The notes under the pieces were generated by a model. The model saw nothing but the letters and a program-made list of their open reading frames with translations, ran no database searches and was not told the origin of the DNA. Made by a program: the position numbers and the translations under genes. A stretch of DNA of 64,000 nucleotides. Origin: Candidatus Krumholzibacteriota bacterium. Its GTDB lineage: Bacteria; Krumholzibacteriota; Krumholzibacteriia; JAJRXK01. Positions within the stretch are counted from its first letter, which is position 1. The number at the start of each line of letters is the position of its first letter. Location of the stretch: positions 1 to 64,000 of the forward strand of contig JAJDAC010000045.1 of NCBI GenBank assembly GCA_029262065.1. Direction: 5' to 3'. This document shows, one piece after another, positions 41,399-59,578 of the stretch.

Positions 41399-41428
41399 TT
41401 GCCAGGTGCCGCGTGCGGCCGATACAAT
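41399..41428 (+). promoter_or_regulatory. Candidate sigma70 promoter of the large secreted protein
   Basis: TTGCCA (41399-41404), 18 bases, then TACAAT (41423-41428). It lies 54 bases upstream of the ATG at 41482. A perfect 12-base palindrome ATACAATTGTAT (41422-41433) covers the -10. Confidence 0.6.
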
Positions 41429-41433
41429 TGTAT
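41422..41433. promoter_or_regulatory. 12-base palindrome over the -10 element
   Basis: ATACAATTGTAT is a perfect palindrome that overlaps the -10 of the plus-strand promoter. A repressor bound here would block transcription of the secreted protein gene. It may also be partly chance, since -10 elements are AT-rich. Confidence 0.35.
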
Positions 41434-41481
41434 GGCCCTTGCCAAGCATCACGCCCTTTGTGGCCCAACCCAGCGAAGTCC

Positions 41482-44400
41482 ATGCCCCGCCCAAGCTTCT
41501 GTGCCCTCTGGGGCCTCGTTCTATTCTCGATGACGTTCGCTTCCTTCGCTGATGCGGCCGGCGGCCCACGACTCCGAATCGAGGAAAACGCGTCCGGGCG
41601 GTTGAGGGTCGATCTTCTGGGCGCGCGGGAAGGTCCTGTCGCTTCTGAAGCAGGCGTCTGGCGGTGGCGGGCGTTGCGCGAGGGCGGTTGGTCTTCGTGG
41701 CAGACCTCCAGGATTGCCCCCGTGACGACATCCACCGCGGAGCTTGCGGCGTTCGAGGTTCAGTGGAACGCCAGCGGCGAAGACCACTACGAGAAAGCTG
41801 TCGCGGTTTGGACGCCTGCCGGGCAATTGCCGCGTTCCTGGTCGTTTCCCGCCGTTTCGAACAAGGCCGGGGGCGGCGTTCCCACCACGGTCAGCGGCAC
41901 GCTGCTGTACGCCGATCGTCGCTATGACGCCAGCGGCTACCTTCCGTCGATCAGGCGACTGCCGGCGCGGCGGGTGAGGATCGATATGGTGGTGGACGGC
42001 GCCAGCGTGCCGTCGGCCACGGCATTCACCGACGATACTGGTCGCTATGAATTTGTGATCAACTTGTCGACAGTCGAGAGTTGGTCGGTCCGGGCGGTCA
42101 GTGAGCTCGATCCGGCGGTTGTCGGAGCCACCCGGGTGGTCGATCAGGTGGGTCCAGGTGGCGACCTTACCAACTCGTCTTCGCTCGCCTTCGATGTCGC
42201 CTCGGTCAGCGCGTTGGTGCCGGGAGCCGTGTTGGACCTGGGGGAAGCCCTGGCCACGTCCAACAGCGGTGCGGGCGAGGTGCAGGCCCTGAATCTGCTG
42301 GACTGCGCGCTCGACGTGGCCGATCTGTTGGCCGACAGCGCGTACCTGGGGGCCGGGTTTTCCGGCACGCCGCCGATCGTGTGGTGGCCCACTGGCGTGA
42401 CCGTCGAAACGCGGTTCCTCGACGGCGCGATCCATGTGGCCGCACCGGGCTCGGGAGACAGCGACGGTTGGTCCGATGGGCTGGTCCTGGCCGCGATTGG
42501 CCAATGGGCGCTGTCCACGTTCAGCCGGCTGGACACCTTCGACGGACAACTCCTGCAATCGGCGCGGGTGGAGCCCAAGCTCGCGCATGGCAATGGCGCC
42601 GCGCTGGCCTTCGCCGCGCTGGTGCGGTCGAACCGTTCGCAACGGCTCGACGCCGACGGACAACCGGCCGACGACGATGTGGCCCAGATCGTCGACCTTC
42701 CGGCCGCGCCTCCCGTGGGGTTCCCCGCGTCGTCCGAGCGTGCACTGGATCTGGAAAGAAGAGTGTGGGACGACGGAACCGGCGTGCGTGCACGCGGGCA
42801 ACAAGGCGTGGACAACGTGGCCTGCATGCATTGGGACCTGATCGATGGCACTGCCACGCCGGCGCCTCCGGCCGGCGACGATGACGGCATCGATGGCGAC
42901 GGGCAGGCGTGGTTCGACGCGACACTTCAGTCCATGAGCCTTCCCGGAAACGAAGCGATCACGTACGAAGATGTTCACCTGGCGTGGATTGCCGACAACG
43001 GTGACTCGCCCGCGTTGGCCGACGTGGCGGTGACCATGGGCGGCACCGCGCTCTACGACGACGCGGCCGAGCCCGACGACGTGCCGGCCCAGGCGGTAGC
43101 GTTGCCCGTATGGGTTCAGCCGGCACCGGGGGGGACCCAGGTGGTACTGAACGAAGTCATGGTGGGCGATACCGATGCCGTTGAGCTTTCCAACGCGTCG
43201 CTGCTGACCGTGGACGTTGGCGGTTGGCGGGTCGTCACCGCGCGCAACGGTTTCGGTGCCGGGGTAGAACGCACGACTACCTTGCCCGTGGGGACGACGA
43301 TTGACCCGGGACGTTTTCTGTTGGTGCAGGAAGGGATAGGTACTTCAACCGGTTCCAACGTGTTCGATGCGAACTGGCAGGTCCCCTGGACATTCGGCGC
43401 CGATGGTGCGTGCACGCTGTTGAACGCGGCAGGCTCCGCGGTCGACTTCGTGCGATGGGGCGGTTCTGGCGGTCCCTCGACCGAACCCGTGCCGGGCGGC
43501 CAGTCCTTCTCGGGTAATGTAGACGGACCGGGTGAAGGGTTCTCCCTCGCACGTGACAGCGTTTCGACCGACAGCGACTCTGCGGCGGACTTCCAGGTTT
43601 CGCCGCCCACCGCGCGCGTGCCCAACGTGGCCGGGTTGGATTTGCGCACGCTGTTTCCCCGCGACGGACTCGATCACATCGCGGTGGATCTGCCCGCGGC
43701 CACGTTGGTGGAAGTGGGGGCGTTGCTGACGGTGGACGCGGCGCAAGCGCGGCTGACCGACCAGGGCGGCGCCTCGGGCGTGGTGAATTCCGACGGCTCG
43801 GCGGAACTTCAGTTGTACGCCGCCGTGGCGACCACCGCCATCGTGCAGCTCGACCAGTTGGATGGCGGGGTGGTCGCAGCCGCGGTCGATCTGATCGCTT
43901 GGGATCCCTACTTCGAGTCCAGCCAGTTGCCGGTAACCAATTTGCTTGCCCAGGCGCAGCTGGTACAGGTTGGCAGCGACGACGTCATGGTCACCTGGAC
44001 CAACACGGGTGTGTACGATTCATTGCGCGTCGATGTCGACGGACAGCTTCGCGCCACGTTGCCAGGTTCATCGCAGAACCACATTGAGATCGTGGCCAGC
44101 GGCCACGCCACGGTTTCCGTGACGCCGGTGCGCAACGGACAGGCGGGGGCGACCAACACCACGGGCGTCTACGTGGGTGTACCCCCCTGTGATTTCGACA
44201 CCGGGTTCGAGGGACTCGACATCCTCCAGTTCGACCTGATCGGTTGGGATACGTTCGCGCCGGGGCTGGGGAGTGCAATGGCGGCGCGGGACGCCGCCTC
44301 CGCGCAGACCAACTACTCCGGCAATGAAGAAGCTACAATTACCCTGCGAGACCCGGTGGGCCTATACGCCGATGCCTTCTTGCGTTTCGATCACGCTTGC

Positions 44401-45825
44401 CATCTGGTGCCAGATGGCGACGCGGCGTTCGTCGAGGTGTCGGTGGACGACGGTTTCTCCTGGGATACCCTGCTGCAGTTCGATGGCAGCGACCACGATG
44501 GTTCCGGCGCGGCCAATTGGCTCGACACCACTCTGGAGTCGGCCGATTGGGTCAGCGAAACGATCAGCCTGGCCGCCTACGCGGGCCGGCATGTCCTGCT
44601 ACGATTCCGTCGTGTCAGCAATGGTTCGGGTGAGAACATCGGCTGGACGATCGACAACCTGGAATTGGCTGGTTTCACCGTCGACGGCGAACATTGGATA
44701 ACCACCGATGGTCGCGACGACCTGGGTTGCGGTCATCCCCAACGTGGTTGGGCCTCGTTCGGCCAGGCGTTGGCGGCGGCGGGGCCCAATGACACCATTC
44801 GCTACGGGGCCGGCACGTTCACCACGCCGACCCTGATAAATGTGGTGGGCAACCAAGAACCGGTCATGCTGCCGGTGCCGCCGGGGCGCACGGTGTTGGG
44901 CACCGGCAGTGAAACCACGATCATCGACGCGGGGCTTGCCACCTGGGGAATGCTGGTCACGTCGGACGTTCCCGATGCAACTCCTACGACGGTGCAGGGC
45001 TTGCAGATCACGAGCGTGAACGATCCCGTGGTTGTTACGTTGGCGAACCTTACCCTGGAAGATGTGGTCCTGCGTGGATTCCAGACCGGGGTACTGTCAT
45101 TTCTGACCGATTTGTCTCTGGTGGACTGTTTGGTTGCGCAGGGCTCGCTGGGTATCCACACGATCGGCGGCAACCTGAAAGTGGAAAATTCAACTCTCGT
45201 GGACATCGTGGATGTCGTGAGAGTTGGTCCCTCGACGGCGTCGGCCACGATCACCCGATCGATCCTGGCCCATGGCTTCAGTACGCTGCTGGAGGTGCAG
45301 GAGCCCGCCGCCGTGCTGGATCTGGAGTGTAACAACTTCTACAACAGCCCCACCCCGTTCGTGGGTCTGCCTTCACCTATCGGCAGCAACGACAATTTTC
45401 AGGCGATACCGCAGTTCTGCAATCGCGGCCAGGGCAACTACAAGCTGGCGTCCACCTCGCCGCTGCTGAATTGGCCAGGTTGCGGCGCGGTTGGATACTG
45501 GGGACAGGGTTGTGCGGGAGTTACATCGGCGCCGGTGGTCTTGCCCTCGTCGACGGGTCTCACCGGCTTGGTTCCCAACCCCTTCAATCCGTCGACGGAG
45601 ATTCGCTACGCCGTGGATCAGCCCGGTGAGGTGCGTCTGGACATCTACGATGTGCGTGGCCGACGGGTGCGGGAGCTGGTGGCCTACCACACCGACGCCG
45701 GCCGGTTCTCGTTGAACTGGAACGGTCGCGACGATCGCGGTCGGTCGGTAGCCAGCGGCGTGTACCTGGTCCGGTGGCAGTCGGCGGGCAAGAGTGATAC
45801 GCGTCGCGCGGTTCTGATTCGCTAG
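41482..45825 (+). CDS. Giant secreted protein: lamin-tail, jelly-roll, beta-helix and FlgD-like sorting domain
   Basis: The product is 1447 residues. A signal peptide (LWGLVLFSMTFASFADAAGG) leads into a ~500-residue beta-rich N-terminal region. A lamin-tail domain follows at ~553-666 (VVLNEVMVGDTDAVELSNAS). A MAM-like/immune-inhibitor-type jelly-roll lies at ~900-1070, then a DUF1565-like right-handed beta-helix at ~1073-1333 (ASFGQALAAAGPNDTIRYGA). The C-terminal ~90 residues are a FlgD-Ig/T9SS-type domain with LVPNPFNPSTEIRYAV and ASGVYLVRW. The protein is exported and probably cell-surface or shed. No enzymatic site is evident. The ATG at 41482 begins the signal peptide. Confidence 0.85.
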   Translation: MPRPSFCALWGLVLFSMTFASFADAAGGPRLRIEENASGRLRVDLLGAREGPVASEAGVWRWRALREGGWSSWQTSRIAPVTTSTAELAAFEVQWNASGEDHYEKAVAVWTPAGQLPRSWSFPAVSNKAGGGVPTTVSGTLLYADRRYDASGYLPSIRRLPARRVRIDMVVDGASVPSATAFTDDTGRYEFVINLSTVESWSVRAVSELDPAVVGATRVVDQVGPGGDLTNSSSLAFDVASVSALVPGAVLDLGEALATSNSGAGEVQALNLLDCALDVADLLADSAYLGAGFSGTPPIVWWPTGVTVETRFLDGAIHVAAPGSGDSDGWSDGLVLAAIGQWALSTFSRLDTFDGQLLQSARVEPKLAHGNGAALAFAALVRSNRSQRLDADGQPADDDVAQIVDLPAAPPVGFPASSERALDLERRVWDDGTGVRARGQQGVDNVACMHWDLIDGTATPAPPAGDDDGIDGDGQAWFDATLQSMSLPGNEAITYEDVHLAWIADNGDSPALADVAVTMGGTALYDDAAEPDDVPAQAVALPVWVQPAPGGTQVVLNEVMVGDTDAVELSNASLLTVDVGGWRVVTARNGFGAGVERTTTLPVGTTIDPGRFLLVQEGIGTSTGSNVFDANWQVPWTFGADGACTLLNAAGSAVDFVRWGGSGGPSTEPVPGGQSFSGNVDGPGEGFSLARDSVSTDSDSAADFQVSPPTARVPNVAGLDLRTLFPRDGLDHIAVDLPAATLVEVGALLTVDAAQARLTDQGGASGVVNSDGSAELQLYAAVATTAIVQLDQLDGGVVAAAVDLIAWDPYFESSQLPVTNLLAQAQLVQVGSDDVMVTWTNTGVYDSLRVDVDGQLRATLPGSSQNHIEIVASGHATVSVTPVRNGQAGATNTTGVYVGVPPCDFDTGFEGLDILQFDLIGWDTFAPGLGSAMAARDAASAQTNYSGNEEATITLRDPVGLYADAFLRFDHACHLVPDGDAAFVEVSVDDGFSWDTLLQFDGSDHDGSGAANWLDTTLESADWVSETISLAAYAGRHVLLRFRRVSNGSGENIGWTIDNLELAGFTVDGEHWITTDGRDDLGCGHPQRGWASFGQALAAAGPNDTIRYGAGTFTTPTLINVVGNQEPVMLPVPPGRTVLGTGSETTIIDAGLATWGMLVTSDVPDATPTTVQGLQITSVNDPVVVTLANLTLEDVVLRGFQTGVLSFLTDLSLVDCLVAQGSLGIHTIGGNLKVENSTLVDIVDVVRVGPSTASATITRSILAHGFSTLLEVQEPAAVLDLECNNFYNSPTPFVGLPSPIGSNDNFQAIPQFCNRGQGNYKLASTSPLLNWPGCGAVGYWGQGCAGVTSAPVVLPSSTGLTGLVPNPFNPSTEIRYAVDQPGEVRLDIYDVRGRRVRELVAYHTDAGRFSLNWNGRDDRGRSVASGVYLVRWQSAGKSDTRRAVLIR

Positions 45826-45890: not shown

Positions 45891-48800
45891 CTACTTCAGG
45901 AGGGTTACCCGCTTCGAGTGCCCGCGCGCGCCGTCGTCGACCCGCACCAGATACACGCCCGAAGCAACGGTCTGACCTCGATCATTCGTCCCGTTCCAAT
46001 TCAAGCGATGCGTTCCCGCCGTGAGTTCGCGCCCGCTCTCGAGCGTACGTACCAGGCGTCCCGCCAGATCATAGACCCTCAGCGAGACCTGGGCCGTGGC
46101 GCCAAGCTCGAACTGGATCGTGGTCTGCGGGTTGAACGGGTTGGGGTAGTTCGACAGCTCGCTCACCAGGCTGACGTTGACGGGAACCGGATTGTTGTCT
46201 TCGACACCGGTCGACGTGTTCGTGGCGTTACGTATCTGGATGTGCACGGTGTTGCCGTCGGCCGGGTTGCATCCCAGGACGAACATCCGGACTTCATCTT
46301 GATGGAACACGCCGTCGCGGGTGAGGATGGTCTTCCACGCCAGGGGCGAGTTGGGGTCGGTGCCCAGTGAAATGTCGTAGCCGTAACACTCTTCGAGTTC
46401 GAGGAAGTCACTGCCGTCACCGTTGTTCACGATCAAGAGGTCACTGCCATCTTGACCCGGAATGCCGGCAGGAACGGGAATCCGGTACGAATCGTTGGGG
46501 TTGATGACGACGTCGGCCGCAAAGCCGATGATCGGCAACTCCAGATGCAGTCGGGTGGGGTCGGGGCCAAAGTTGCGCAGGGTAAGGTTGAGCTTCTGCA
46601 GACCGTTGCGCGAGCTGGCGAAGTGACGGCTCTCGCCGTTGGCCAGATCAAAGCGCGAGGTGCGCTCCACCCGCGCCAACGCGCAAGCCGTGGGCGTGGC
46701 CCGGTTTGCCCACAGAACCTCCACACACAGGTCATCGGTGTCCTCAGGATCCAGTTGGGCCGAGGTTGAAGATCCGCGTCCGTCGTCCAACGGTTCGTCC
46801 ATGGACTGGCCGTTTACGTAGGGCGGCAGCGTGGGGAACGCCGGTGTGACCTGCGCGGGCTCGCAAGCGCTATCAACCAGGCTCATGAGTTCGAATCCCA
46901 GGTCACGCAGCCAGCCGTAGGGCGGCACACCAAAGATCGTGCACTTGATGTAGCCGTTCAGGACCTCGGCCGAGTACAGGCCGGTCGCCGCCGACTCCGG
47001 GTTCCAGCCGCCCTTGACGCCAGTGGCGCGAGGGTCGCTGGCAACGATGTTCTGGTAGTAACCGTTACCTACCACGTCCCACACCGGGATCCAGGCCGGA
47101 GGCAGCATCGCCCAGGGCAGCAACTGCTGTTGATTGATGAGACGGAAGATGGCTGGCCAGCTCGGGGTGCCTACGATGTCGCGAAACGTTTCGTTCTCCA
47201 TCGCTTCGCCCACGAAGATGGCCATGTCCTGCGCCGTGGTCCAATGGTCGCCGTAGGGACGTCCCGCCGGGTTGTTGAACGTGTGCGCGGGCGACATGCC
47301 CATCTGCTGTGCGCGCGTGTTCATCATGTCGGCGAAGTCACTCAGCACCACGGGTAGGTTCCACTCGGTGGATTCCGTATCGTCCCAGACGGCGGTCTCA
47401 CCCTGGAGGATGTTGCCCACCGTGTAGGCCGCGTCGTTGCCCGATACGGCGATCATCACGCGGACGAGATCGTGGAAACGCATCTGCTCACCGGCGAACA
47501 ATCCGTACTGCGATCCGGTGACCTTGTTGGCGCACCAGGCGGGCACGGTATAGAGCTGATTGGGATCCACCGTGCCAGCGTCGATGGCCTCGGCCGCCAG
47601 CAGGGCCGTCATGGCCTTGGTGGTCGACGCCGGTGTGAGACGTTGACCCATACGCTGCGCGTACAGAATGCGGTCGGCGCAGTCCTTGACTATGGAGCTA
47701 CGGTGCGGCTTGTTGCCGGGCTGGCGCCACGGAGCCATCACGTAGACCTGGCCGGCCTCGATGATGTCGGTGTCGGGATCGATGAACGCCGGGTACATCT
47801 TGTTGGGGACGCCGATGACCAGGTTGTCCCAGCCGCTTTCGTCGAATTTTCCAAAGGCCAACGACCAGCCCAGTTGCTCGTCAAAGCCGAACCACAGATC
47901 GTTGCGTTCCATGGCGTCGATGACCTTGGTTTGCGCCACCGCGAAGTTGCTGTGCGAACCCGGCACGATGTAGGCCGACCCCACGTTGTCGAAGTAGATG
48001 GCTTCGCTGGCATCGGGCACCAGTACGTCGTCGCCCGGCGCGCCGATGGCAAGATCTTCCAGGCCGTCGGGTCCGGCCAGACCCGCGTTGTCCATGATGT
48101 TGCCCGCCGCGAGCGCCCAACCAAAGGCGGCCCCCGGATTGATCTGCTCGCCAAGCACGCCCTGGTCGAGAATGCGAGGGCTCACGCCGACGACGTCGCC
48201 GGGACCGTCGTAGTCGACCACGACCACGCGTCCGGAGGTGGTGACGCCTTCGCTGTAATAATGCGGTTCACCGATCGCCAGGTCGGGACGCGCGCCGTTT
48301 TCGTCCAGAAACGATCCGGCGGCGAGCGACCATCCAAACAGGCGATCGAGCTGCATGGGAATGTTCAGGGTCAGTGGGGTGTGGATTTCAACGCCCGCGA
48401 CGATCGGACCATTCGCGGTGCCGCGAATGACATACACCTTGCCCATGTCGAGCAGGGAACCGTCGTCGGCCTTGGGCGCACCCACGGCGAGTTCGAGATA
48501 GTCGTCGTCGAGAAAGTTTCCCAGCGTCAGTGAGTAACCGAACAGCGAGCCCGGTTCGTCCTGGCCACCCAGGTGTGACTGCTTGGCAAAGCCTGAACCG
48601 GTCGTCGAGACGCCGGCGGCGGATCCGGGGAAGAAACCCACGAGGCCCGCGTCATTGTCTTCACCGATCGAACCCACGAACAGATCGTCGAACCCGTCCA
48701 GGGTCATGTCGCCGGCGGTCAGGGTGTAGCCGAACTGGTCGCCGTCTTCGTTGCTGGCGCCGCAGTCGTCCTGGTAGAGCTGGACGTAGGGGGCCAGGCT

Positions 48801-49268
48801 AATGCCGACGCCCGGTAGCCCTTCGTAGATCCAGACCGAGCCGACGTTGTCGTCGCCGATGGTGTCCAGACCGGGGATGCCCACGGCCAGATCGGTGGTT
48901 CCGTCGCCATTGAAGTCACCGGCGGCCAGGCCCTTGCCAAACCAGACCTGGAAGTCGGTGGGCGCGCCCACGCTCAGTACGTCGGCGCCGATGTGCGTGA
49001 TGCCGGCCTCGGAGCCGTAGCTCACGATGACGACACCGTGCTGGCCGCCCACGCCGATATCGTTGTTTTCGTCGGGCGCGGCCACGGCGACGTCTTCGAA
49101 TCCGTCACCGTTGAAGTCGCCCGTGGCGACCCGGTCGCCGTAGTGATCCTGGGCGTTGGGGACCTCAGCGGACTCGGCGCCCTGGCGGATGAGGCCTAGG
49201 TACGCCGAAGCGGTTGGGGCCTGAATCAGTAGATAGAGTGCGATCGCGAGGGCAAAACGGAAAAACAT
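45891..49268 (-). CDS. Secreted FG-GAP/integrin-like propeller fused to D-alanyl-D-alanine carboxypeptidase, with FlgD-like tail
   Basis: The product is 1125 residues. After a signal peptide (LALAIALYLLIQAPTASA-like), residues ~25-540 hold FG-GAP repeats with calcium loops (TGDFNGDGFEDVAVAAPDE; AAGDFNGDGTTDLAVGIPG). Residues ~545-790 form an S11 serine D,D-peptidase with all three motifs: STTK (Ser ~547), SGN (~607) and KGG in place of KTG (~749). A beta-rich region follows, and residues ~1037-1125 are a FlgD-like sorting domain (NYPNPFNPQTTIQFEL; ASGVYLVRV). Ordinary carboxypeptidases lack both flanking modules. It may act on peptidoglycan at the surface. The ATG at 49268 has AGGAGA upstream. 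Confidence 0.85.
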   Translation of the reverse strand: MFFRFALAIALYLLIQAPTASAYLGLIRQGAESAEVPNAQDHYGDRVATGDFNGDGFEDVAVAAPDENNDIGVGGQHGVVIVSYGSEAGITHIGADVLSVGAPTDFQVWFGKGLAAGDFNGDGTTDLAVGIPGLDTIGDDNVGSVWIYEGLPGVGISLAPYVQLYQDDCGASNEDGDQFGYTLTAGDMTLDGFDDLFVGSIGEDNDAGLVGFFPGSAAGVSTTGSGFAKQSHLGGQDEPGSLFGYSLTLGNFLDDDYLELAVGAPKADDGSLLDMGKVYVIRGTANGPIVAGVEIHTPLTLNIPMQLDRLFGWSLAAGSFLDENGARPDLAIGEPHYYSEGVTTSGRVVVVDYDGPGDVVGVSPRILDQGVLGEQINPGAAFGWALAAGNIMDNAGLAGPDGLEDLAIGAPGDDVLVPDASEAIYFDNVGSAYIVPGSHSNFAVAQTKVIDAMERNDLWFGFDEQLGWSLAFGKFDESGWDNLVIGVPNKMYPAFIDPDTDIIEAGQVYVMAPWRQPGNKPHRSSIVKDCADRILYAQRMGQRLTPASTTKAMTALLAAEAIDAGTVDPNQLYTVPAWCANKVTGSQYGLFAGEQMRFHDLVRVMIAVSGNDAAYTVGNILQGETAVWDDTESTEWNLPVVLSDFADMMNTRAQQMGMSPAHTFNNPAGRPYGDHWTTAQDMAIFVGEAMENETFRDIVGTPSWPAIFRLINQQQLLPWAMLPPAWIPVWDVVGNGYYQNIVASDPRATGVKGGWNPESAATGLYSAEVLNGYIKCTIFGVPPYGWLRDLGFELMSLVDSACEPAQVTPAFPTLPPYVNGQSMDEPLDDGRGSSTSAQLDPEDTDDLCVEVLWANRATPTACALARVERTSRFDLANGESRHFASSRNGLQKLNLTLRNFGPDPTRLHLELPIIGFAADVVINPNDSYRIPVPAGIPGQDGSDLLIVNNGDGSDFLELEECYGYDISLGTDPNSPLAWKTILTRDGVFHQDEVRMFVLGCNPADGNTVHIQIRNATNTSTGVEDNNPVPVNVSLVSELSNYPNPFNPQTTIQFELGATAQVSLRVYDLAGRLVRTLESGRELTAGTHRLNWNGTNDRGQTVASGVYLVRVDDGARGHSKRVTLLK

Positions 49269-49379
49269 GGGATCTCCTGGGGTTTTGACGTCAGTGCGTC
49301 GTTCACCGGGGGAGATGCCACCCAATCGGGAATCGCTGCCAAGAAAATCGGTGCTTTTTTCCCGGCGCCTCGGCGCCGG

Positions 49380-49826
49380 CTATTCGACCAGTTCGAAGGC
49401 CGCGACCACGTCCAGCGCGGTCTGCGCCTCGTCCATCTCGCGTGGTACCGCGCGGTCATCGTCGGTGGCGCGGGCAAACACGTAGCGACCGGGGCTCAAG
49501 CCAGCCAGGGGCACGGCCAGGTTCGCAGAATCGGCACCGGCCGGTTCCAGCCAACGCAGGATGGTTCGCTCGGGAAACGCCTGGTGAAGGGCCACGCGGC
49601 CCGTGTTGCTTGGCCGGCGCAGAATCACGTACGAACCGTGGCTACGATGTACCACGCGTTCATCGTGTTCGGACAGGGTCGCCGCAATCGGCTGGGGTAC
49701 CAGCAGTGCCTGTCGGCTGGCGGACTGCGCAAAGCCGCGTACCACCATGAGCGCGAAGGCGATGGCCAGCACCAGCCACACGTAGCGCGGGGCGGCCAGG
49801 GGCTGGTTCAATCCGAAAGCGTTCAA
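49380..49826 (-). CDS. Small membrane-anchored protein coupled to clpV
   Basis: The product is 148 residues. One N-terminal helix (YVWLVLAIAFALMVVRGFA) is followed by a ~110-residue, beta-rich soluble domain. No family is recognised. The start is a TTG at 49826 that overlaps the clpV stop (TTGA), so translation is coupled. Location suggests it is part of the contractile injection locus. The one-helix, ~150-residue layout is like that of TssO of the Bacteroidota type VI system, but I cannot show homology. Confidence 0.6.
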   Translation of the reverse strand: MNAFGLNQPLAAPRYVWLVLAIAFALMVVRGFAQSASRQALLVPQPIAATLSEHDERVVHRSHGSYVILRRPSNTGRVALHQAFPERTILRWLEPAGADSANLAVPLAGLSPGRYVFARATDDDRAVPREMDEAQTALDVVAAFELVE

Positions 49827-52312
49827 TCCAACTCGATCTTCAGTTCGTCGCCGTTCATGTCCAGGCGTGCCGCGCGTCCCGCCGTGCCTTCGCTTTCGGA
49901 CATCATGATCTGCGCCAGCGGATTGATGATGCGCTGGTCGATGGTGCGTCGCACCGGGCGCGCGCCCATGGCGGGGTCGTAGCTCCATTCGGCCAGGCGA
50001 TCCATCGCCGCGTCGCTGATTTCCAGGGTCATGTCCTGAGCGGCCAGCATCTTGTGCAGCGACTTCAGCTGCAGCCCCAGAATCTGTCGCACCTCGTCCG
50101 AGTTCAGGCTGTGGAACACTACGAACTCGTCGAAACGGTTCACGAACTCGGGTCGCAGTCCGCGGCCGCCGTCGATCAACATGTCACGCAGCACCGTGTT
50201 GTCCACCGGTATACCCTTGGCGTTTTGCTCGGCGATCCACAGGCCCGCCATGTTGCTGGTCATGATGACCACGGTGTTGGAGAAGTCCACGGTGCGGCCC
50301 TGGCCGTCGGTAAGCCTCCCGTCGTCCAACACCTGCAGAAACACGTCGAACACGCGTTTGTCGGCCTTTTCTATTTCGTCGAACAGCAACACGCTGTAAG
50401 GCTTCAGACGTACCGCTTCGGTCAGCTGACCACCTTCTTCGTAACCCACGTAACCGGGAGGTGCGCCCACCAGCCGCTGCACCGTGTGTTCCTGTTGGAA
50501 CTCGCTCATGTCGAAGCGGATCATGGCCTTTTCGTCGGCAAACAGGAATTCGGCCAGGGTCTTGGCCAATTCGGTCTTGCCGGTGCCGGTGGGTCCCAAG
50601 AACAGGAAGCTGCCGATCGGCAGGTTGGGGCGTTTCAATCCCGCCCGGCCCTTGCGCACGGCGTTGGCCACGGCCACCACCGCCTCGTTCTGGCCGATCA
50701 GGCGTGCATGCAGGAACTGTTCGATGTGCGCGAGGCGTTCGCGCTCCTTGCCCATCATCTTGCTCACGGGAATGCCGGTGCGCAGCGACACCCGTGCGCC
50801 CACCTGGATCTCATCCACCCCGGGCGGCACCGTCGCCGCCAGTTCCAGAATCTTCTCGCGCGCGCTCGCGAGCGACACGGCGTCGCGTTCGGCGAGCGAA
50901 GGCAGATCCTCGAAGCCGCGCGCTTTCAGACCACGGGCGATCTCGTCGAGGATGTCGCCCCAGTGTTCGAGCGCGTCGCTGTCTTCCTGGGCGCTGCCCT
51001 CTTTCGAGGTGTCGGCTCCTTTCAGGCCCGCGATGGCGGCGCCGTCTTCCTGCAGGTACTTCAGTCGATCGCCGAAGATGCGGGTGTTCGAGGCGCAATC
51101 GTCCAACAGGTCGACGGCCTTGTCGGGAAGAAAGCGATCGGGAATGTAGCGCTTGGAAAGCGTCACCGCGGCCTGCAGGGCTTGATCATGGATCTCGACC
51201 TGATGGTGTTCCTGGTAGCGCGGTCGGATTCCCTCGAGGATGCGCACGCACACGGCTTCGTCGGGTTCGGCTACGTCGATGCGCACGAAGCGTCTGGCGA
51301 AGGCCGGGTCCTTCTCTATGTGGGTCTTGTATTCGCCCACCGTCGTGCAGCCGATCACGCGCAGCGCGCCTCGCGCCAACGCTGGCTTCAGCAGGTTGGC
51401 GGCGTCCATGCCACCTCCGCCGCCGCCGGCGCTGAGCAGCGTGTGGACCTCGTCCACGAACAGGATGGCCTGGCCGGCGGTGGCTTCCAGTTCGCGAATC
51501 AGTTTCTTCAGTCGTTCCTCGAATTCGCCTTTGTACTTTGCTCCGGCCACCAACGAAGCCAGGTCGAGGCTGAGGATGCGGCAGTCGGTCAGGACGGGCG
51601 GAACGTGTCCTTGCGCGATAGCCAGAGCCAAGCCTTCGACCACGGCGGTCTTGCCCACGCCGGGTTCGCCGACCAGCACCGCGTTGTTCTTGCGACGACG
51701 GGCCAGGGTTTCGATGAGCTGCGCCGTTTCGGCCTGGCGACCGATGACTGGATCCAGCTCGCCCGAACGCGCCTCGGCCGTCAGGTCGGTGCAGAACTGC
51801 AGAAGGTTGCCGGCCGACGACGCGCCAGCGGCGGACGCCGTCCCGGCGCCAGCCGGGACCGCCAACCCCTCAGCCTTCTGCAGATCCTTCAGCACCGACA
51901 GAATCCCGGCCCGCTTCAACCCCAGTTCCTTGCGCAACCCGCGGTCGATACCCCCGTCCACCGAGACCAGGGCAATAAGCAGGTGTACGCCGGTGAGTTC
52001 CTCGGCCTCCAACACCTTGCGCTCGGTTTCGGCCAGATCCAAGGCGCCCTGGAATTTGCCAGAGGGTTTGGGCTCGAATACGGGCCGCGAGGGCTTGTCT
52101 ACCTGATCGAGGGCGTCGTCCAGCCGGTCGCGCACCGGAGCGATCTCGCGGCTCATGGCCAGGAGCAGGTTGGCCACGTCACCATCGTCAGGAACCAGCA
52201 GGGCGTAGAACAGGTGGAGGGGCGTGGTTTCGGCGTGCCCACGTTCCTTGGCGATGTCGCTCGCTCGCGTCACGGCATCGGTGACTTCCATCTTCCAGCG
52301 GCGGGTATTCAT
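49823..52312 (-). CDS. clpV: ClpV/TssH-type AAA+ ATPase
   Basis: The product is 829 residues. A Clp N-domain (residues 1-~150; HAETTPLHLFYALL) precedes AAA1 with Walker A GEPGVGKT (~213) and AAA2 with Walker A GPTGTGKT (~571), plus the pore loop GAKYKGEFEERLKKL and GAPPGYVGYEEGGQLTEAVR. The middle coiled-coil is short for ClpB. In type VI systems ClpV recycles contracted TssBC sheath. Divergent placement beside tssB supports ClpV over the stress disaggregase ClpB. The ATG at 52312 has AGGAG upstream. Confidence 0.88.
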   Translation of the reverse strand: MNTRRWKMEVTDAVTRASDIAKERGHAETTPLHLFYALLVPDDGDVANLLLAMSREIAPVRDRLDDALDQVDKPSRPVFEPKPSGKFQGALDLAETERKVLEAEELTGVHLLIALVSVDGGIDRGLRKELGLKRAGILSVLKDLQKAEGLAVPAGAGTASAAGASSAGNLLQFCTDLTAEARSGELDPVIGRQAETAQLIETLARRRKNNAVLVGEPGVGKTAVVEGLALAIAQGHVPPVLTDCRILSLDLASLVAGAKYKGEFEERLKKLIRELEATAGQAILFVDEVHTLLSAGGGGGGMDAANLLKPALARGALRVIGCTTVGEYKTHIEKDPAFARRFVRIDVAEPDEAVCVRILEGIRPRYQEHHQVEIHDQALQAAVTLSKRYIPDRFLPDKAVDLLDDCASNTRIFGDRLKYLQEDGAAIAGLKGADTSKEGSAQEDSDALEHWGDILDEIARGLKARGFEDLPSLAERDAVSLASAREKILELAATVPPGVDEIQVGARVSLRTGIPVSKMMGKERERLAHIEQFLHARLIGQNEAVVAVANAVRKGRAGLKRPNLPIGSFLFLGPTGTGKTELAKTLAEFLFADEKAMIRFDMSEFQQEHTVQRLVGAPPGYVGYEEGGQLTEAVRLKPYSVLLFDEIEKADKRVFDVFLQVLDDGRLTDGQGRTVDFSNTVVIMTSNMAGLWIAEQNAKGIPVDNTVLRDMLIDGGRGLRPEFVNRFDEFVVFHSLNSDEVRQILGLQLKSLHKMLAAQDMTLEISDAAMDRLAEWSYDPAMGARPVRRTIDQRIINPLAQIMMSESEGTAGRAARLDMNGDELKIELD

Positions 52313-52384
52313 GTTGGAGCGCTCCTGGGGTTGGGCCCGGTCAGGCCGCGGCCCGCGGGAAGGGGTAGGAATTAGCGGACGACG

Positions 52385-52414
52385 ATCTTAGATCCCGCTC
52401 GCAATGGGTGTCAA
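52385..52414 (-). promoter_or_regulatory. Candidate sigma70 promoter of clpV
   Basis: On the minus strand a perfect TTGACA (52409-52414), 18 bases, then TAAGAT (52385-52390). The predicted leader is about 66 bases. Confidence 0.5.
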
Positions 52415-52571
52415 AGCCTGCCACCGGAGGATTCCCCGTCGAAGATTGGCGAGGTATATCGTCAGGATTGGCGAATGATCGCAAGTCCGTGTTTGTTGGC
52501 GTCACCCCAGTAGACCTCGTAACTCTATGCAGAAATTGGAGTTTTGGAACTATGCTGGAAATTGCGCCCAG

Positions 52572-52580
52572 TGGTATGAT
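52572..52580 (+). promoter_or_regulatory. Candidate extended -10 promoter of the tss operon
   Basis: TGGTATGAT is an extended -10 (TG, one base, TATGAT), with no good -35. It lies about 120 bases upstream of tssB. Confidence 0.4.
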
Positions 52581-52703
52581 CCATGATGTACACACGAGTC
52601 GACGGGGCAGACGAAGATGGCTTCGCCCTCCCGTGACTTGGGTGGCTTCAACCGCTCCTAAGGACACGGGCGACACTGAGCGAGACTGGAGGACCAAACA
52701 GTC

Positions 52704-53156
52704 ATGGCCAAGATGAAACACATGTTCGCGGAACACATCAAGGAACTCGACGACAGCATGGCGGTCGAGATCCTGGATAGCAACCGCACGATCTTCGTAG
52801 CTCCGCTGAATGAGTCAGCGGGAGAAGAACCCGAGCTGACAAATTGTCGAAACACCAAAGACGTATTCGAGAAGTTCAAGCCGATGGCCGAGGTCGAGGT
52901 GAAGAACGATCAGGGTGAGTCGGAGAGTGCGGACCTGCACTTCAACCAGGTAAAGGACTTCAGCGTGGACTCGGTGATTGCCCAGAGCAAGACCCTCGAG
53001 TCCATCCGCAACGAGAATCTGATTCTCAAGGAATTCCTGAAGTCGGTGGGTTCCAACGCAACCCTACGCAAGGCTCTGAGCGACGGTACTCAGCGCGATC
53101 AATTACTCAATGGATTCAAGGCCGCGCTGGCAGCCTTGGGCGGAGAGGAGGAGTGA
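52704..53156 (+). CDS. tssB: Contractile sheath small subunit TssB (VipA)
   Basis: The product is 150 residues. The core DVFEKFKPMAEVEVKNDQGE followed by FNQVKDFSVDSVIAQS is the TssB pattern in which a beta strand feeds into the TssC sheet; the tail LLNGFKAALAALG resembles the Bacteroidota-type TssB. With TssC it forms the sheath that contracts to drive the Hcp tube. The ATG at 52704 has GGAGG upstream. Its end overlaps the tssC ribosome site and a GTG start candidate. Confidence 0.87.
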   Translation: MAKMKHMFAEHIKELDDSMAVEILDSNRTIFVAPLNESAGEEPELTNCRNTKDVFEKFKPMAEVEVKNDQGESESADLHFNQVKDFSVDSVIAQSKTLESIRNENLILKEFLKSVGSNATLRKALSDGTQRDQLLNGFKAALAALGGEEE

Positions 53157-53158
53157 CG

Positions 53159-54607
53159 ATGTCGGACGAACAGAACGAACAACAATCTCCTGATTCTCAG
53201 CCCGAAACCGTTCACGCCGAAGCCGAAGCGGCTTCCCCATCGGCGGCTCCTCAGGACGCGGCCACCTACGCGGGCGCTCTGAAGGAAGTCGGCATCGGCG
53301 ACGCGAAGAAGACGATCACCTGGTTGGGCAAGATGATGCCGAAGGCCGTGAGCGACGGTATGAAGTTGCCCGCGCTCTCGCTGCTCGATCCGGGCAAGAA
53401 GTCGCAGTACAAGGACTTCCTCGAGAAGCCCACCTGGGATGAACCTCGCAAGCTCATGAAGCAGCGTCTGTCCGCCTGGATCACGGCGATCGAGGCTTCC
53501 GACGACCTCGACGAGGTCCAGGAGAAGGCCAGCGAGCGCGTCGATCAGCTGAGCGAGTTGCTCAGTGAAAACCTGAACAGCGTGTACGAGACCATTCGGC
53601 CGCTGGAGAAGACGTATCGCGCCCTGGACGGATTCTTCGCCAACGCGCAGACCGAGCCGGGCGCCAACGTGGACGCATGGTTCTACAACTGCAGCGGCGA
53701 GCAGCTCATGGATTCCGACGACCGCACCGTGTTCGAGGGTCTGGCCGAGACGATCCGCTCTGAGTACAAGTTCTTCAGCTTGAAGAACGTCTATTCGAAT
53801 CTGGTGCTCCCCAATTGGCCCGGCGGCATCCAGGAAGTGGATCGTCTGGGTTCGTTGGGTGAGATGTACAAGATCCAGGTGTTCGCCGACGTGGAAGACT
53901 ACGAGACCTTCGACGAACTGGTCGACGTGATGGAGGCCGGGTACGAGGGCATCAAGGGTAGCACCTCCGAGAAGCAGTACGTGTCGCTGGTGGGCAACCA
54001 CCTCATGGGACGCGAACGTCACGAGTTCGAAGATGATGATCTGTACGTGTCGCCGGCCGCGCATCTGGCCGGGCTCATCTACAACTGCGATGAGTCCATG
54101 GGCACGCACGAATCGTCGGCGGGTTACGTGAAGGGTGGCATCCAGGGTCCGGCCAAGGACCGTTTTCGCCTGGACCGGGACAAGGTCGCCAAGATGAAGC
54201 AGCTGGGCGTCATTCCCACGGCCTACTGGGATGGCAAGGTCCGCATGCTGGGCGACTGGAACCTCTCGGCCAAGGAAGGTCTGGATACCTACTCACGCAT
54301 CCGAACCGAAGACTGGGTGGTGAAGAACGTTTGTCATTACCTGAACAAGCAGGCGTTCAAGAACATCACCAATCAGACTCTGTCCGCGATCCAGAAGGAC
54401 CTTCGCAAATTCCTCGGGGAATGCGTGGGGGACACCAAGCCTTTGGATAGCGCGCAGGTGGAAGTACGGGCCACGCCCGAGCAACGAGCCAAGCACGAAG
54501 TCGATGTCAAGCTCACGCTCGGGTTCAAACAATCCGTACACGCCTTCAATGTGAAGGTCAAAGAAGACGACGCCGGAAACACCGATGTTTCCTTTGAGCA
54601 AGAATAA
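53159..54607 (+). CDS. tssC: Contractile sheath large subunit TssC (VipB)
   Basis: The product is 482 residues. The first ~100 residues are a charged helical tail; homology to TssC starts near RPLEKTYRALDGFF and continues through NVYSNLVLPNW, KIQVFADVEDYETFDELVDV, DLYVSPAAHLAGLIY, LGVIPTAYWDGKV, YSRIRTEDWVVKNVCHYLNK and IQKDLRKFLGE. This resembles Bacteroidota (T6SSiii) TssC more than the proteobacterial form. The ATG at 53159 is preferred over the GTG at 53153 because AGGAGG is seven bases before it. Confidence 0.87.
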   Translation: MSDEQNEQQSPDSQPETVHAEAEAASPSAAPQDAATYAGALKEVGIGDAKKTITWLGKMMPKAVSDGMKLPALSLLDPGKKSQYKDFLEKPTWDEPRKLMKQRLSAWITAIEASDDLDEVQEKASERVDQLSELLSENLNSVYETIRPLEKTYRALDGFFANAQTEPGANVDAWFYNCSGEQLMDSDDRTVFEGLAETIRSEYKFFSLKNVYSNLVLPNWPGGIQEVDRLGSLGEMYKIQVFADVEDYETFDELVDVMEAGYEGIKGSTSEKQYVSLVGNHLMGRERHEFEDDDLYVSPAAHLAGLIYNCDESMGTHESSAGYVKGGIQGPAKDRFRLDRDKVAKMKQLGVIPTAYWDGKVRMLGDWNLSAKEGLDTYSRIRTEDWVVKNVCHYLNKQAFKNITNQTLSAIQKDLRKFLGECVGDTKPLDSAQVEVRATPEQRAKHEVDVKLTLGFKQSVHAFNVKVKEDDAGNTDVSFEQE

Positions 54608-54641
54608 ACAGTCACATACCTACTAAAAGGAGAAACTAACA

Positions 54642-55037
54642 ATGGCACGGCAACCAATTTTCAAGGTCGATGGCAACGAAATGTCCAACGTCCTCGAGGT
54701 GAAGTACGGCATCAACGCAGCTCTGGATCGCGATGGCGCCCCCACCCGTGGTGTGGACTTCAGCGGTCTGTTCATCCGTCGCGTCATGGACGGCAAGGTC
54801 GACATCGCCGACTGGGCGTCCTCGGCCGACTCGCCGAATCGCAAGAGCGGTGAGATCGTATTCATGAACGCCGATGGTCAGGTCATGAAGACGGTCACGT
54901 TCGACGGCGCCTACGTACGATCGTACGCGGTGGACTTCGCGGCGGGTGGCGATCACCCCGAAGAGCTCATCGTGATCGAAGCCGAGCAGTTCGACGTCGA
55001 AGGTCACGCGGTGGACTTCGACTGGAAGAACAAGTAG
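54642..55037 (+). CDS. tssD: Hcp-like tube protein TssD, copy 1
   Basis: The product is 131 residues of the short TssD tube-protein type (FKVDGNEMSNVLEVKYGINA; RKSGEIVFMNADG; SYAVDFAAGGDHPEELIVIEAEQF). Hexamers stack into the tube that the sheath propels. It lies 34 bp after tssC and 66 bp before a paralogue that shares the start pattern and strand order. Ribosome site AAAGGAG precedes the ATG. Confidence 0.83.
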   Translation: MARQPIFKVDGNEMSNVLEVKYGINAALDRDGAPTRGVDFSGLFIRRVMDGKVDIADWASSADSPNRKSGEIVFMNADGQVMKTVTFDGAYVRSYAVDFAAGGDHPEELIVIEAEQFDVEGHAVDFDWKNK

Positions 55038-55103
55038 CCCGTTTCTTCACACACACTCAAATATTCACATTGAACCAAGTAGACAAGCAAGGAGACGAAA
55101 CAA

Positions 55104-55532
55104 ATGGCGCGCGCGAATCAATACCGAGTAGAGATCGACGGAAGCCCCGTGGGAAATATTCTCTCGGTGAAGTTTGGAGTCAACACGGCCCGCGATTCCA
55201 ACGGAGCCCCGGTGGACAAGGACGCGCAGGTGGACAACATCTGCATCGAGCGTCGCAGTGACGAGAACACCGACCTGTTTCTTTGGTCGCTGAAGCCCCA
55301 CCAGGAGTACTTCAAGAGCGGCAAGATCGAGTTCCTCGATCCCCGCCACGAGGACAAGGTCATCTGTACGATCGAGTTCGAGAATGCCTTCCTGGCCTCG
55401 TACCGCGAGATCGTTCCCCACGTCACCGAACTTCGCAACGAGCCGCAGACCGAGTACGTCGAGATCTCGTCGAACAAGGTCACGTTCAACGGCATCGAGT
55501 GGCAGGGCACGGGCGCCTGGTCGCTCGGGTAA
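55104..55532 (+). CDS. tssD: Hcp-like tube protein TssD, copy 2
   Basis: The product is 142 residues and a paralogue of the preceding tube protein (MARANQYRVEIDGSPVGNIL; LSVKFGVNTARDSNGAPVDK; FKSGKIEFLDP; SYREIVPHVTELRNEP; EYVEISSNKVTFNGIEW). It is diverged enough to have a distinct role, such as a capping ring or an effector-binding tube. Followed by a 10-bp perfect hairpin before vgrG. Confidence 0.82.
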   Translation: MARANQYRVEIDGSPVGNILSVKFGVNTARDSNGAPVDKDAQVDNICIERRSDENTDLFLWSLKPHQEYFKSGKIEFLDPRHEDKVICTIEFENAFLASYREIVPHVTELRNEPQTEYVEISSNKVTFNGIEWQGTGAWSLG

Positions 55533-55557
55533 CTCGCCGATGACTGCGCCGGACCCT

Positions 55558-55582
55558 GGACCCGGGCTGATCGCCCGGGTCC
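55558..55582 (+). terminator. Hairpin between tssD copy 2 and vgrG
   Basis: GGACCCGGGC (55558-55567) and GCCCGGGTCC (55573-55582) pair perfectly around a 5-base loop. There is no T run immediately after, so it is more likely a partial terminator or a 3' mRNA stabiliser that keeps Hcp levels above VgrG. Confidence 0.5.
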
Positions 55583-55624
55583 TGGCTGGCAACTCTTTCT
55601 CATTTCCATACTGAAGAGGACATC

Positions 55625-57463
55625 ATGGCTTTCTCCGATCTCACCGTGAAAGTGGCGGGCAGCGACCTGGCCGATCAGGAAATTCGCGTGGGGGGAATCC
55701 GACTGGAACAAACTCTCGTTGATCACCACCATTTCGAGGTCGAGTGTCTTGCGTTGACGCAGGAAGACTCGGACATCGATGGCGGAATCAGCGACGCGCT
55801 CGACAGCCTGCACGACGGACTGGGGCAGGAGCTCGAGCTGGTCGCCACCTGGGACGGCTCATCGTCCAACCAGACGCTCACCTTCAAGGGCGTGATCACC
55901 GAAGTGAGACACGAGCGCCAACTGCGGGGTGCCTATACGGTTATTCTGCAGGGCTATTCCCACTGCGTGCGGCTGGATTCGGCGATGCGCAATCGCATGT
56001 GGGAAGAGGTCAAGGCTTCCGACGTGATCGCCGAAGTTTGCTCGGCCTACGGCGCGGTCTGCGACGTGCAGGCCAGCACCGACAAGGTCTACGCGTTCCT
56101 CGTTCAGCATGGCCAGACCGACTACGATTTTCTCCGCGAGCTGTGCTCGCGCGAGTTGCTTCACATGTATTACGACGGTACCAAGCTCGTGGTGGCCAAC
56201 CAGCTCGACGGCGGCTCACAGACGCTGACCATGGGCCGCACCGAAGAGTCGGGATCTTTGCATAGCTTTGGCGTGAGCCTGGCGGCCAGCGGTGGCAAGG
56301 TTCGCGTACGTGAATGGGACCCCGTAACCGCCAAGTCCTTGAAAAAGGCCAATTCGGAGATTTCCGTATCGGGCGCCAAGCATCCGTTCACGGACCTGGC
56401 CATGACGCGCAGCGACGAGGTGTTCGGAGAGGTCGGCGATCATATGACCGCGGTGCCTCCGGCTTCGTTGGCCGATATCGACCACGAACTCAAGAATCGC
56501 AAGACCAGTTGGCTGTCGCATCTGGTGCGGGGCACCGGCGAGAGCGACAACCTGGCCCTGGTCCCTGGCGTCACGTTGGACGTGCAGGGCGTGAGTTCAG
56601 CTCACTCGGGCGAGTATTTCGTCGAGCGGGTGGAGCATCAGTTCGAGGTGGGCGGCTCGCGCTATCGCAACGAGTTCGAGTGTATTCCCGCGCAAACCAA
56701 ATTTCCGGCCCTGGCCGAGCCCACGCCGAAACAGTCGAGCATCTGGACGGGCATTGTCGTGGACAACTACGACCCCGAAAACGCGGGTCACGTGAAGGTG
56801 ACGTTGACCCACTCCGTGGATGGCGAAACCGCCGAGGGCGCCAGCCGGGACGGCGAGGTCATCACCAAATGGATTCCGGTAGCCAGCCCGCACGCGGGTG
56901 AAGGTTGGGGTTGGGTTTCGTTGCCCGAACCCGGCGACGAAGTACTCGTAGCGTTCATCCACGGCAACTTCCACCGGCCCGTGATCATCGGCAGTTTGCA
57001 CAACCCGGGCAAGCCCAGCGCGGCGTTCGATCAGATCACCGACGAAATGCCCGCCAATGAGGGCAAGGTGTTCCTGACCAGAAGCGGCAATCGCCTGTTG
57101 TTTCGGGACACTCCTGACAGCGAGACGATCGAGATCTCCACGCCCGATCAGAAGAACCGTATTACGCTGACCATGGATGGTGGCGAGAAAATCGAAATCC
57201 ACACCGAGGGTGACCTCAAGGTCAAGGCCATGAAGACCGTCACGGTGGAGGCCGAGGATTCCATTACTGTGACCAGCCAGAAGGACATCACGCTGGAAGC
57301 CCAGGGCGACATGAACCTGAAGGCCAAGGGCAAACTGAACATGGAAGCCAAGGGCAACTCCGAACTCGCCGGAATGGAAGTGAACGTGAAGAGCAAGGGT
57401 GGTACGGTAAAGGCCAGCCCGTCGGGAGTCGACGTGAAGGGCAGCATGATCAAGTTGAACTAG
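55625..57463 (+). CDS. vgrG: VgrG/TssI spike protein
   Basis: The product is 612 residues. Residues ~1-360 are the gp27-like base (LEQTLVDHHHFEVECLAL; FLVQHGQTDYDFLRELCSRE). A gp5 OB-fold follows at ~375-460 (GIVVDNYDPENAGHVKVTL; HAGEGWGWVSLPEPGDEVLV; HGNFHRPVIIGSLHNPGKP). The C-terminus is a repetitive beta-prism (VTVEAEDSITVTSQKDITLE; DMNLKAKGKLNMEAKGNSEL) ending without any added effector domain. It caps the Hcp tube. No PAAR tip gene follows. Confidence 0.92.
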   Translation: MAFSDLTVKVAGSDLADQEIRVGGIRLEQTLVDHHHFEVECLALTQEDSDIDGGISDALDSLHDGLGQELELVATWDGSSSNQTLTFKGVITEVRHERQLRGAYTVILQGYSHCVRLDSAMRNRMWEEVKASDVIAEVCSAYGAVCDVQASTDKVYAFLVQHGQTDYDFLRELCSRELLHMYYDGTKLVVANQLDGGSQTLTMGRTEESGSLHSFGVSLAASGGKVRVREWDPVTAKSLKKANSEISVSGAKHPFTDLAMTRSDEVFGEVGDHMTAVPPASLADIDHELKNRKTSWLSHLVRGTGESDNLALVPGVTLDVQGVSSAHSGEYFVERVEHQFEVGGSRYRNEFECIPAQTKFPALAEPTPKQSSIWTGIVVDNYDPENAGHVKVTLTHSVDGETAEGASRDGEVITKWIPVASPHAGEGWGWVSLPEPGDEVLVAFIHGNFHRPVIIGSLHNPGKPSAAFDQITDEMPANEGKVFLTRSGNRLLFRDTPDSETIEISTPDQKNRITLTMDGGEKIEIHTEGDLKVKAMKTVTVEAEDSITVTSQKDITLEAQGDMNLKAKGKLNMEAKGNSELAGMEVNVKSKGGTVKASPSGVDVKGSMIKLN

Positions 57464-57478
57464 ACCCTGGGGAATGAG

Positions 57479-57874
57479 ATGTCCGACGAAATTGCCCCCT
57501 ACCTGCGCCTGCCTCTCACGTTCGAGGGCGGGCGTTTGGCTTCCTGCTCCATGGATGCCTCGGTCGCGGCCAACATTCGCTTGATCCTTCACAACCAGGT
57601 GCAGGGTCAGGCCAAGCCCCCCGGCGTATCCGCCAACCCCGACTACGGGGCCGACCTGCCGCACCATGAGTTTCGTCACGGTCGCATCCAGGACGTGGTG
57701 CAGGAAGTCAGGCGCGCGCTTCGCGACCTCGAGCCCCGCATCGTGCACCCGGCCAAGGTCGACTTCGTCAAGAAGCGCCCGGGGCGCTTTCTTCCGTTCG
57801 CCGTGCTTCGCGTTTCCAGTACCGTGATCGCGACGGGTGAACCCATTACCCTGGAATTCGAGATCGAAAAATGA
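57479..57874 (+). CDS. tssE: Baseplate wedge protein TssE (gp25-like)
   Basis: The product is 131 residues. The gp25 features are present: an opening PLTFEGGRLASCSMDASVAANI, NPDYGADLP with the conserved acidic residue, VQEVRRALRDLEPRI, and a C-terminal beta pair. It nucleates the sheath at the baseplate. It follows vgrG by 15 bases and overlaps tssF by four (ATGA). Confidence 0.87.
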   Translation: MSDEIAPYLRLPLTFEGGRLASCSMDASVAANIRLILHNQVQGQAKPPGVSANPDYGADLPHHEFRHGRIQDVVQEVRRALRDLEPRIVHPAKVDFVKKRPGRFLPFAVLRVSSTVIATGEPITLEFEIEK

Positions 57875-59577: not shown

Positions 59578-59578
59578 C

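Follow-up and report, generated by a model that had tools for sequence, protein, structure and literature searches.

An S11-fold domain placed between an integrin-like FG-GAP propeller and a T9SS sorting tail in a protein of Krumholzibacteriota

D,D-peptidases of the penicillin-binding type are regarded as periplasmic enzymes that maintain the cell wall, and in the enzymes of family S11 both the threonine of the K-T-G motif and an arginine of the R248 type help to hold the carboxylate of the substrate. The closest described proteins are the S11 low-molecular-mass penicillin-binding proteins (PBPs) of about 400 residues, such as E. coli PBP5/DacA and DacD and B. subtilis DacB, together with the Streptomyces K15 D,D-transpeptidase. 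The latter carries the K-T-G motif without any extra domains, has SGC in place of SGN, and is also deposited in the PDB as an R248L mutant. The T9SS-exported peptidases of Bacteroidota and their relatives share the TIGR04183 tail and the SprA/PorU/PorV machinery; peptidases are common cargo of this secretion system (PMC11205867). As for the FG-GAP repeats, which build the propeller of integrin alpha and of bacterial FG-GAP proteins, a trypsin-FG-GAP fusion has been reported in Streptomyces avermitilis, and the D,D-peptidases of S12/PF00144 covered by the same survey are mostly single-domain (PMC2605481). In the open-access literature covered, no paper was found on S11 or PBP-fold cargo of the T9SS, on FG-GAP repeats joined to a D,D-carboxypeptidase, or on KGG in place of KTG. 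The FG-GAP/S11/TIGR04183 fusion itself may already be listed in UniProt/InterPro without comment.

The gene described here lies at 45891-49268 on the (-) strand of the window, by which the whole stretch of analysed DNA is meant (64,000 nucleotides from a Candidatus Krumholzibacteriota bacterium). Its ATG at 49268 is preceded by AGGAG at 49274-49278, 5 bases to the 5' side. The encoded protein of 1125 residues comprises, from its N-terminus, a putative signal peptide, an FG-GAP propeller, an S11/PBP-like domain, a stretch of about 230 residues and a T9SS type A tail. The individual features are the following:

45891-49268, (-) strand: whole gene, an open frame of 1125 codons (1125 residues) with its ATG at 49268
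49203-49268, (-) strand: predicted signal peptide, residues 1-22 (MFFRFALAIALYLLIQAPTASA), recognised by eye from an Arg, a hydrophobic run and A-x-A before Y23
47724-49199, (-) strand: seven-bladed FG-GAP beta-propeller, residues 24-515, from Pfam, the repeats and the model
46854-47723, (-) strand: Peptidase S11 (PBP-like) domain, residues about 516-805, from Pfam, a PDB profile match and the model
47616-47627, (-) strand: S-T-T-K, residues 548-551, with predicted nucleophile Ser548 and base Lys551; invariant in nine of ten family members
47436-47444, (-) strand: S-G-N, residues 609-611; S and N invariant in nine of ten family members
47007-47015, (-) strand: K-G-G, residues 752-754, at the site of the canonical K-T-G, from alignment with K15 itself and PBP5 homologues
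46164-46853, (-) strand: uncharacterised region, residues about 806-1035, present but poorly conserved in relatives
45894-46163, (-) strand: T9SS type A C-terminal sorting domain (FlgD Ig-like), residues 1036-1125, from TIGR04183, PF13860 and PF18962
45841-45867, (-) strand: terminator-like hairpin directly 3' of the stop, 11 pairs followed by GTTTCGT; consensus match only

The sequence-only reading had placed an FG-GAP propeller, an S11 domain and a FlgD/T9SS-like tail in a single frame, and all three are indeed recognised above curated cut-offs. In Pfam, the FG-GAP repeats score 78.6 bits (cut-off 22.1) and Peptidase_S11 (PF00768) scores 75.4 bits over residues 528-698 (gathering cut-off 27.6), while the tail is matched by FlgD_ig with 42.1 and by Por_Secre_tail with 29.5 bits (cut-off 27 for both). 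For the roughly 230 residues between the S11 domain and the tail, no Pfam or NCBIfam family was matched. The propeller is complete, with seven FG-GAP repeats starting at residues 43, 110, 179, 243, 311, 382 and 466; calcium loops of the DxDxDG type are clear in blades 1 and 2 only (DFNGDG at 51 and 118). The model of this region, built from 20 sequences (pLDDT 85.4, pTM 0.91), matches integrin alpha over its full length, with Z values of 36.5-38.0 and an rmsd of about 2.5-3.1 over 376-399 residues. As modelled, the propeller is of the integrin-alpha type, seven-bladed and closed. The likeness to integrin alpha and to the bacterial FG-GAP proteins thus resides in the seven FG-GAP blades (Z up to 38); in contrast to both, the propeller is here fused to a hydrolase domain.

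The S11 domain was modelled from 11 sequences with moderate confidence (pLDDT 65.9, pTM 0.73), and model residues 203-249, just before KGG, are unreliable. The model matches DacD (Z 27.7, 3.6 Å over 256 residues), E. coli PBP5 (Z 27.4, 4.0 Å over 257) and the K15 D,D-transpeptidase (Z 26.5, 2.6 Å over 242); the best profile and fold matches of the domain are all D,D-peptidases. With PBP5/DacA, DacD and DacB it shares the fold (Z about 27) and the motif order S-x-x-K, S-x-N, K-x-G, and with K15 the S-T-T-K motif and a well-aligned K-x-G region. When the family profile is aligned to S11 enzymes of the PDB, K-x-G falls opposite K213-T-G in K15 and opposite KTG in PBP5, and K752 sits on the expected strand in the model. 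Consequently, the active-site geometry, on which the sequence-only reading had made its proposal depend, appears to be preserved, since the model retains the S11 fold and has K-x-G on the expected strand.

The same reading had described the three serine-peptidase motifs as intact. The letters are as given (STTK at 548, SGN at 609 and KGG at 752), but KGG is not the canonical KTG. In the ordinary S11 proteins of the class, the third motif is KTG in all 30 that were read; among the nine motif-intact members of the present family, the middle residue varies: six have G, two have P and one, the relative in genome G053, has S. The arginine matching R248 of K15 is not conserved across the family, and in the 1125-residue protein an Arg is found one column away. 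Furthermore, no Pfam match to the PBP5 C-terminal domain was found in this protein up to an E value of 0.1, its C-terminus being the T9SS tail in place of a PBP5-type membrane anchor. The domain belongs to S11 by profile and fold, but because KGG replaces KTG, the Arg is not conserved and the PBP5 C-terminal domain is missing from the matches, it is not called a canonical D,D-carboxypeptidase. In addition to these three departures, the protein is distinguished from PBP5/DacA, DacD and DacB by its N-terminal propeller, its T9SS tail and its length of 1125 residues instead of about 400. The designation "complete D,D-carboxypeptidase" was therefore too strong, given the Gly at the position of the KTG Thr and the unconserved carboxylate-binding Arg; judging from these two positions, D,D-carboxypeptidase activity could be absent.

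The explanation preferred here, to which about an even chance is assigned, is a surface-displayed or released serine hydrolase of the S11 fold, positioned by its propeller and acting on extracellular D-Ala-type peptides or on non-self peptidoglycan. The altered motif raises the question of whether the domain is instead an active serine hydrolase of other specificity (an esterase, a D-amino-acid amidase or a beta-lactamase-like enzyme) that does not act on peptidoglycan. Such an enzyme would account for K-G-G, K-P-G or K-S-G in place of K-T-G and for the unconserved Arg, and the Beta-lactamase2 profile also matches the 1125-residue protein with 35.8 bits (cut-off 22). The exclusive presence of D,D-peptidases among the best profile and fold matches and the K-S-G kept in the G053 relative argue against it, and this alternative is regarded as improbable, although deserving of real weight.

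Nine further full-length or near-full-length proteins have the same domain order, at about 30-44% identity, an agreement well above what chance would give. One is a paralogue in the same genome, four occur in other Krumholzibacteriia and four in the MAG G089 ("bacterium isolate Co_bin.215"). The paralogue, located on contig C5, is full length (37% identity, E 5.7e-158), and the relative in G032 is 35% identical to the 1125-residue protein. A PF00768 survey of 80 genomes of the class revealed S11 in 52 of them; fragments aside, the proteins are ordinary enzymes of about 280-590 residues and six long ones with frames of 1056-1162 residues. Two of these six belong to this genome; G032, G053, G055 and G061 contribute one apiece, the G061 protein being truncated where its contig ends. 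G089 lies outside the 80 surveyed genomes, and its four relatives emerged when S11 was searched for in 36 genomes to which other loci had led. No relative was found in a single-protein scan of a set of genome contigs, and a profile scan of the same contigs gave mostly FG-GAP-only proteins, because the profile patterns fell in the propeller. Two scans of viral contigs yielded no S11 domain, a third was used only to collect sequences for the model, and tblastn against plasmids returned single-domain matches only. The ten S11 domains of the family are separated from nine ordinary S11 domains with support of 99/98, in a tree where some branches are long and internal placements unsure. Taken together, the 1125-residue protein belongs to a small but real family with one altered active-site motif.

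Nine of the ten members have the same active-site residues throughout, Ser, Lys, Ser, Asn, Lys and Gly. Of the 275 ungapped alignment columns, 32 are invariant among these nine, and all six catalytic positions would fall in this set by chance with a probability of 1.6e-6, according to a hypergeometric test that takes account neither of relatedness nor of how conserved S11 sites are in general. In the tenth member, L200:2150-5449 on the (-) strand, N and I replace the Ser and Lys of SxxK, the Ser and Asn of SxN are exchanged for L and G, and the middle residue of K-x-G is R. This protein has lost four of the six catalytic positions and kept 18 of the 26 other invariant sites, and from this pattern it is likely a natural pseudoenzyme. 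Three motif-intact paralogues are present in its genome (G089). This loss indicates that the motifs can disappear, and elsewhere they are kept. It also bears on the possibility that the domain is generally non-catalytic and that the protein serves as an adhesin or as a binder of peptidoglycan or beta-lactams: one member retains the architecture although SxxK and SxN are gone, and most members depart from KTG. The invariance of the six catalytic residues in the other nine, at only about 30-44% identity, speaks against a purely binding role, which is considered slightly less probable again than a change of specificity.

The probable location of the protein is indicated by its tail, on which NCBIfam TIGR04183 scores 36.2 (cut-off 23); all seven relatives tested also pass this cut-off, with scores of 24.9-35.4. 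The same genome encodes the T9SS translocon SprA (429.7 bits, equivalog cut-off 200), the T9SS sortase PorU (489.7, equivalog cut-off 420) and, adjoining PorU, a protein of the PorV/PorQ family (172.5, cut-off 90). The surface sorting proposed earlier is well supported by the combination of the TIGR04183 tail with SprA, PorU and the PorV family protein, and since the genome carries this machinery, export of the 1125-residue protein to the outer surface is likely.

The host genome, a draft of 59 contigs, contains three transpeptidases and therefore makes a peptidoglycan cell wall, and it lacks both an ordinary S11 and an S13 enzyme. From this it might be supposed that the protein is a housekeeping D,D-carboxypeptidase of the organism's own wall, bearing an additional propeller and tail. 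The T9SS tag, however, directs it outside the outer membrane. Moreover, three genomes of the host's own taxonomic family contain no S11 whatever and hence need none, so that the long proteins hardly seem to stand in for a lost housekeeping enzyme, and the relatives in G032, G053, G055 and G061 coexist with ordinary S11 enzymes. The host also has one VanY/M15 candidate (G000:C2:199826-200200, L182), and the housekeeping role is consequently held to be very unlikely. The L182 frame, of 708 residues, is much longer than usual for a VanY/M15 D,D-peptidase, and this protein may also be a fusion. A self-remodelling role, which the sequence-only reading had entertained, is less likely, because the T9SS delivers its cargo outside the outer membrane; its other two proposals, action on the peptidoglycan of neighbours and predation, may apply. 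Finally, a chimeric frame produced by sequencing or assembly error, conceivable in a draft genome and previously named as a point on which the fusion might fail, has practically no probability left and is ruled out by the nine relatives with the same architecture, which are spread over five other genomes and a second locus in the host.

Upstream of the fusion gene, on the same strand, an ORF of 202 residues is followed by a Clp/TssH-like ATPase, beyond which a contractile cluster lies on the opposite strand:

49823-60526: T6SS-like contractile cluster, with the Clp/TssH-like ATPase on the (-) strand and TssB, TssC, a phage-tail-like protein, VgrG, a TssE-like protein, a TIGR02243-like baseplate protein and TssG on the (+) strand

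The cluster scores below the NCBIfam equivalog cut-offs and is therefore taken as a divergent contractile system. PASTA is a peptidoglycan-binding domain, and the TssG-like protein (59579-60526) shows a weak N-terminal match to it (20.3 bits, below the cut-off of 23.2). The 202-residue ORF (49380-49988) overlaps the ATPase frame in its first part, has one hydrophobic segment in the remainder and gave no Pfam match. The convergent neighbour at 41413-45825, of 1470 residues, carries a lamin-tail domain, a MAM-like domain and a T9SS-like tail. The T9SS and the T6SS are described in a review as cooperating in ixotrophic predation (PMC11205867). A functional link between the fusion gene and the cluster was weighed but is not adopted here. 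At four other family loci (C5, G055, G032 and G053), the neighbours looked at include no genes of this kind and are unrelated to the cluster, so that its proximity here is suggestive only.

Returning to the preferred explanation of a propeller-positioned hydrolase displayed on the surface or released from it, the signal peptide, as read from the sequence, would take the protein into the periplasm. The C-terminal domain would then guide it across the outer membrane via the T9SS, for which both machinery and tag are present, and the exported protein would be retained on the surface or released. The propeller, whose fold is modelled, may position the protein by binding a ligand. By analogy with S11 enzymes, Ser548 would be acylated, with Lys551 acting as the base and Ser609/Asn611 and Lys752 assisting. 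Because K-G-G takes the place of KTG and no conserved Arg binds the carboxylate, the domain should recognise its substrate differently from PBP5; the most likely substrates would be the D-Ala-containing peptides or the cross-links of peptidoglycan that is extracellular or non-self. A bolder proposal would regard the whole family as PBP-fold enzymes of the outer surface, targeted by their propellers and equipped with a redefined K-G-G site. Delivered by the T9SS, they would open or trim other bacteria's peptidoglycan, perhaps in concert with the adjacent contractile injection system, and so serve feeding or antagonism in Krumholzibacteriota. This proposal is put forward tentatively and is rather unlikely to hold.

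By combining the PBP fold with an integrin-like propeller and a tag for export to the outer surface, the family raises the question of what role such a fold plays outside the cell. It also alters the most conserved substrate-binding motif of PBP-type enzymes, and its nine motif-intact members, together with one pseudoenzyme, form a natural comparison set for the role of KTG in specificity. For the uncultured phylum Krumholzibacteriota, the family constitutes a concrete lead to its lifestyle.
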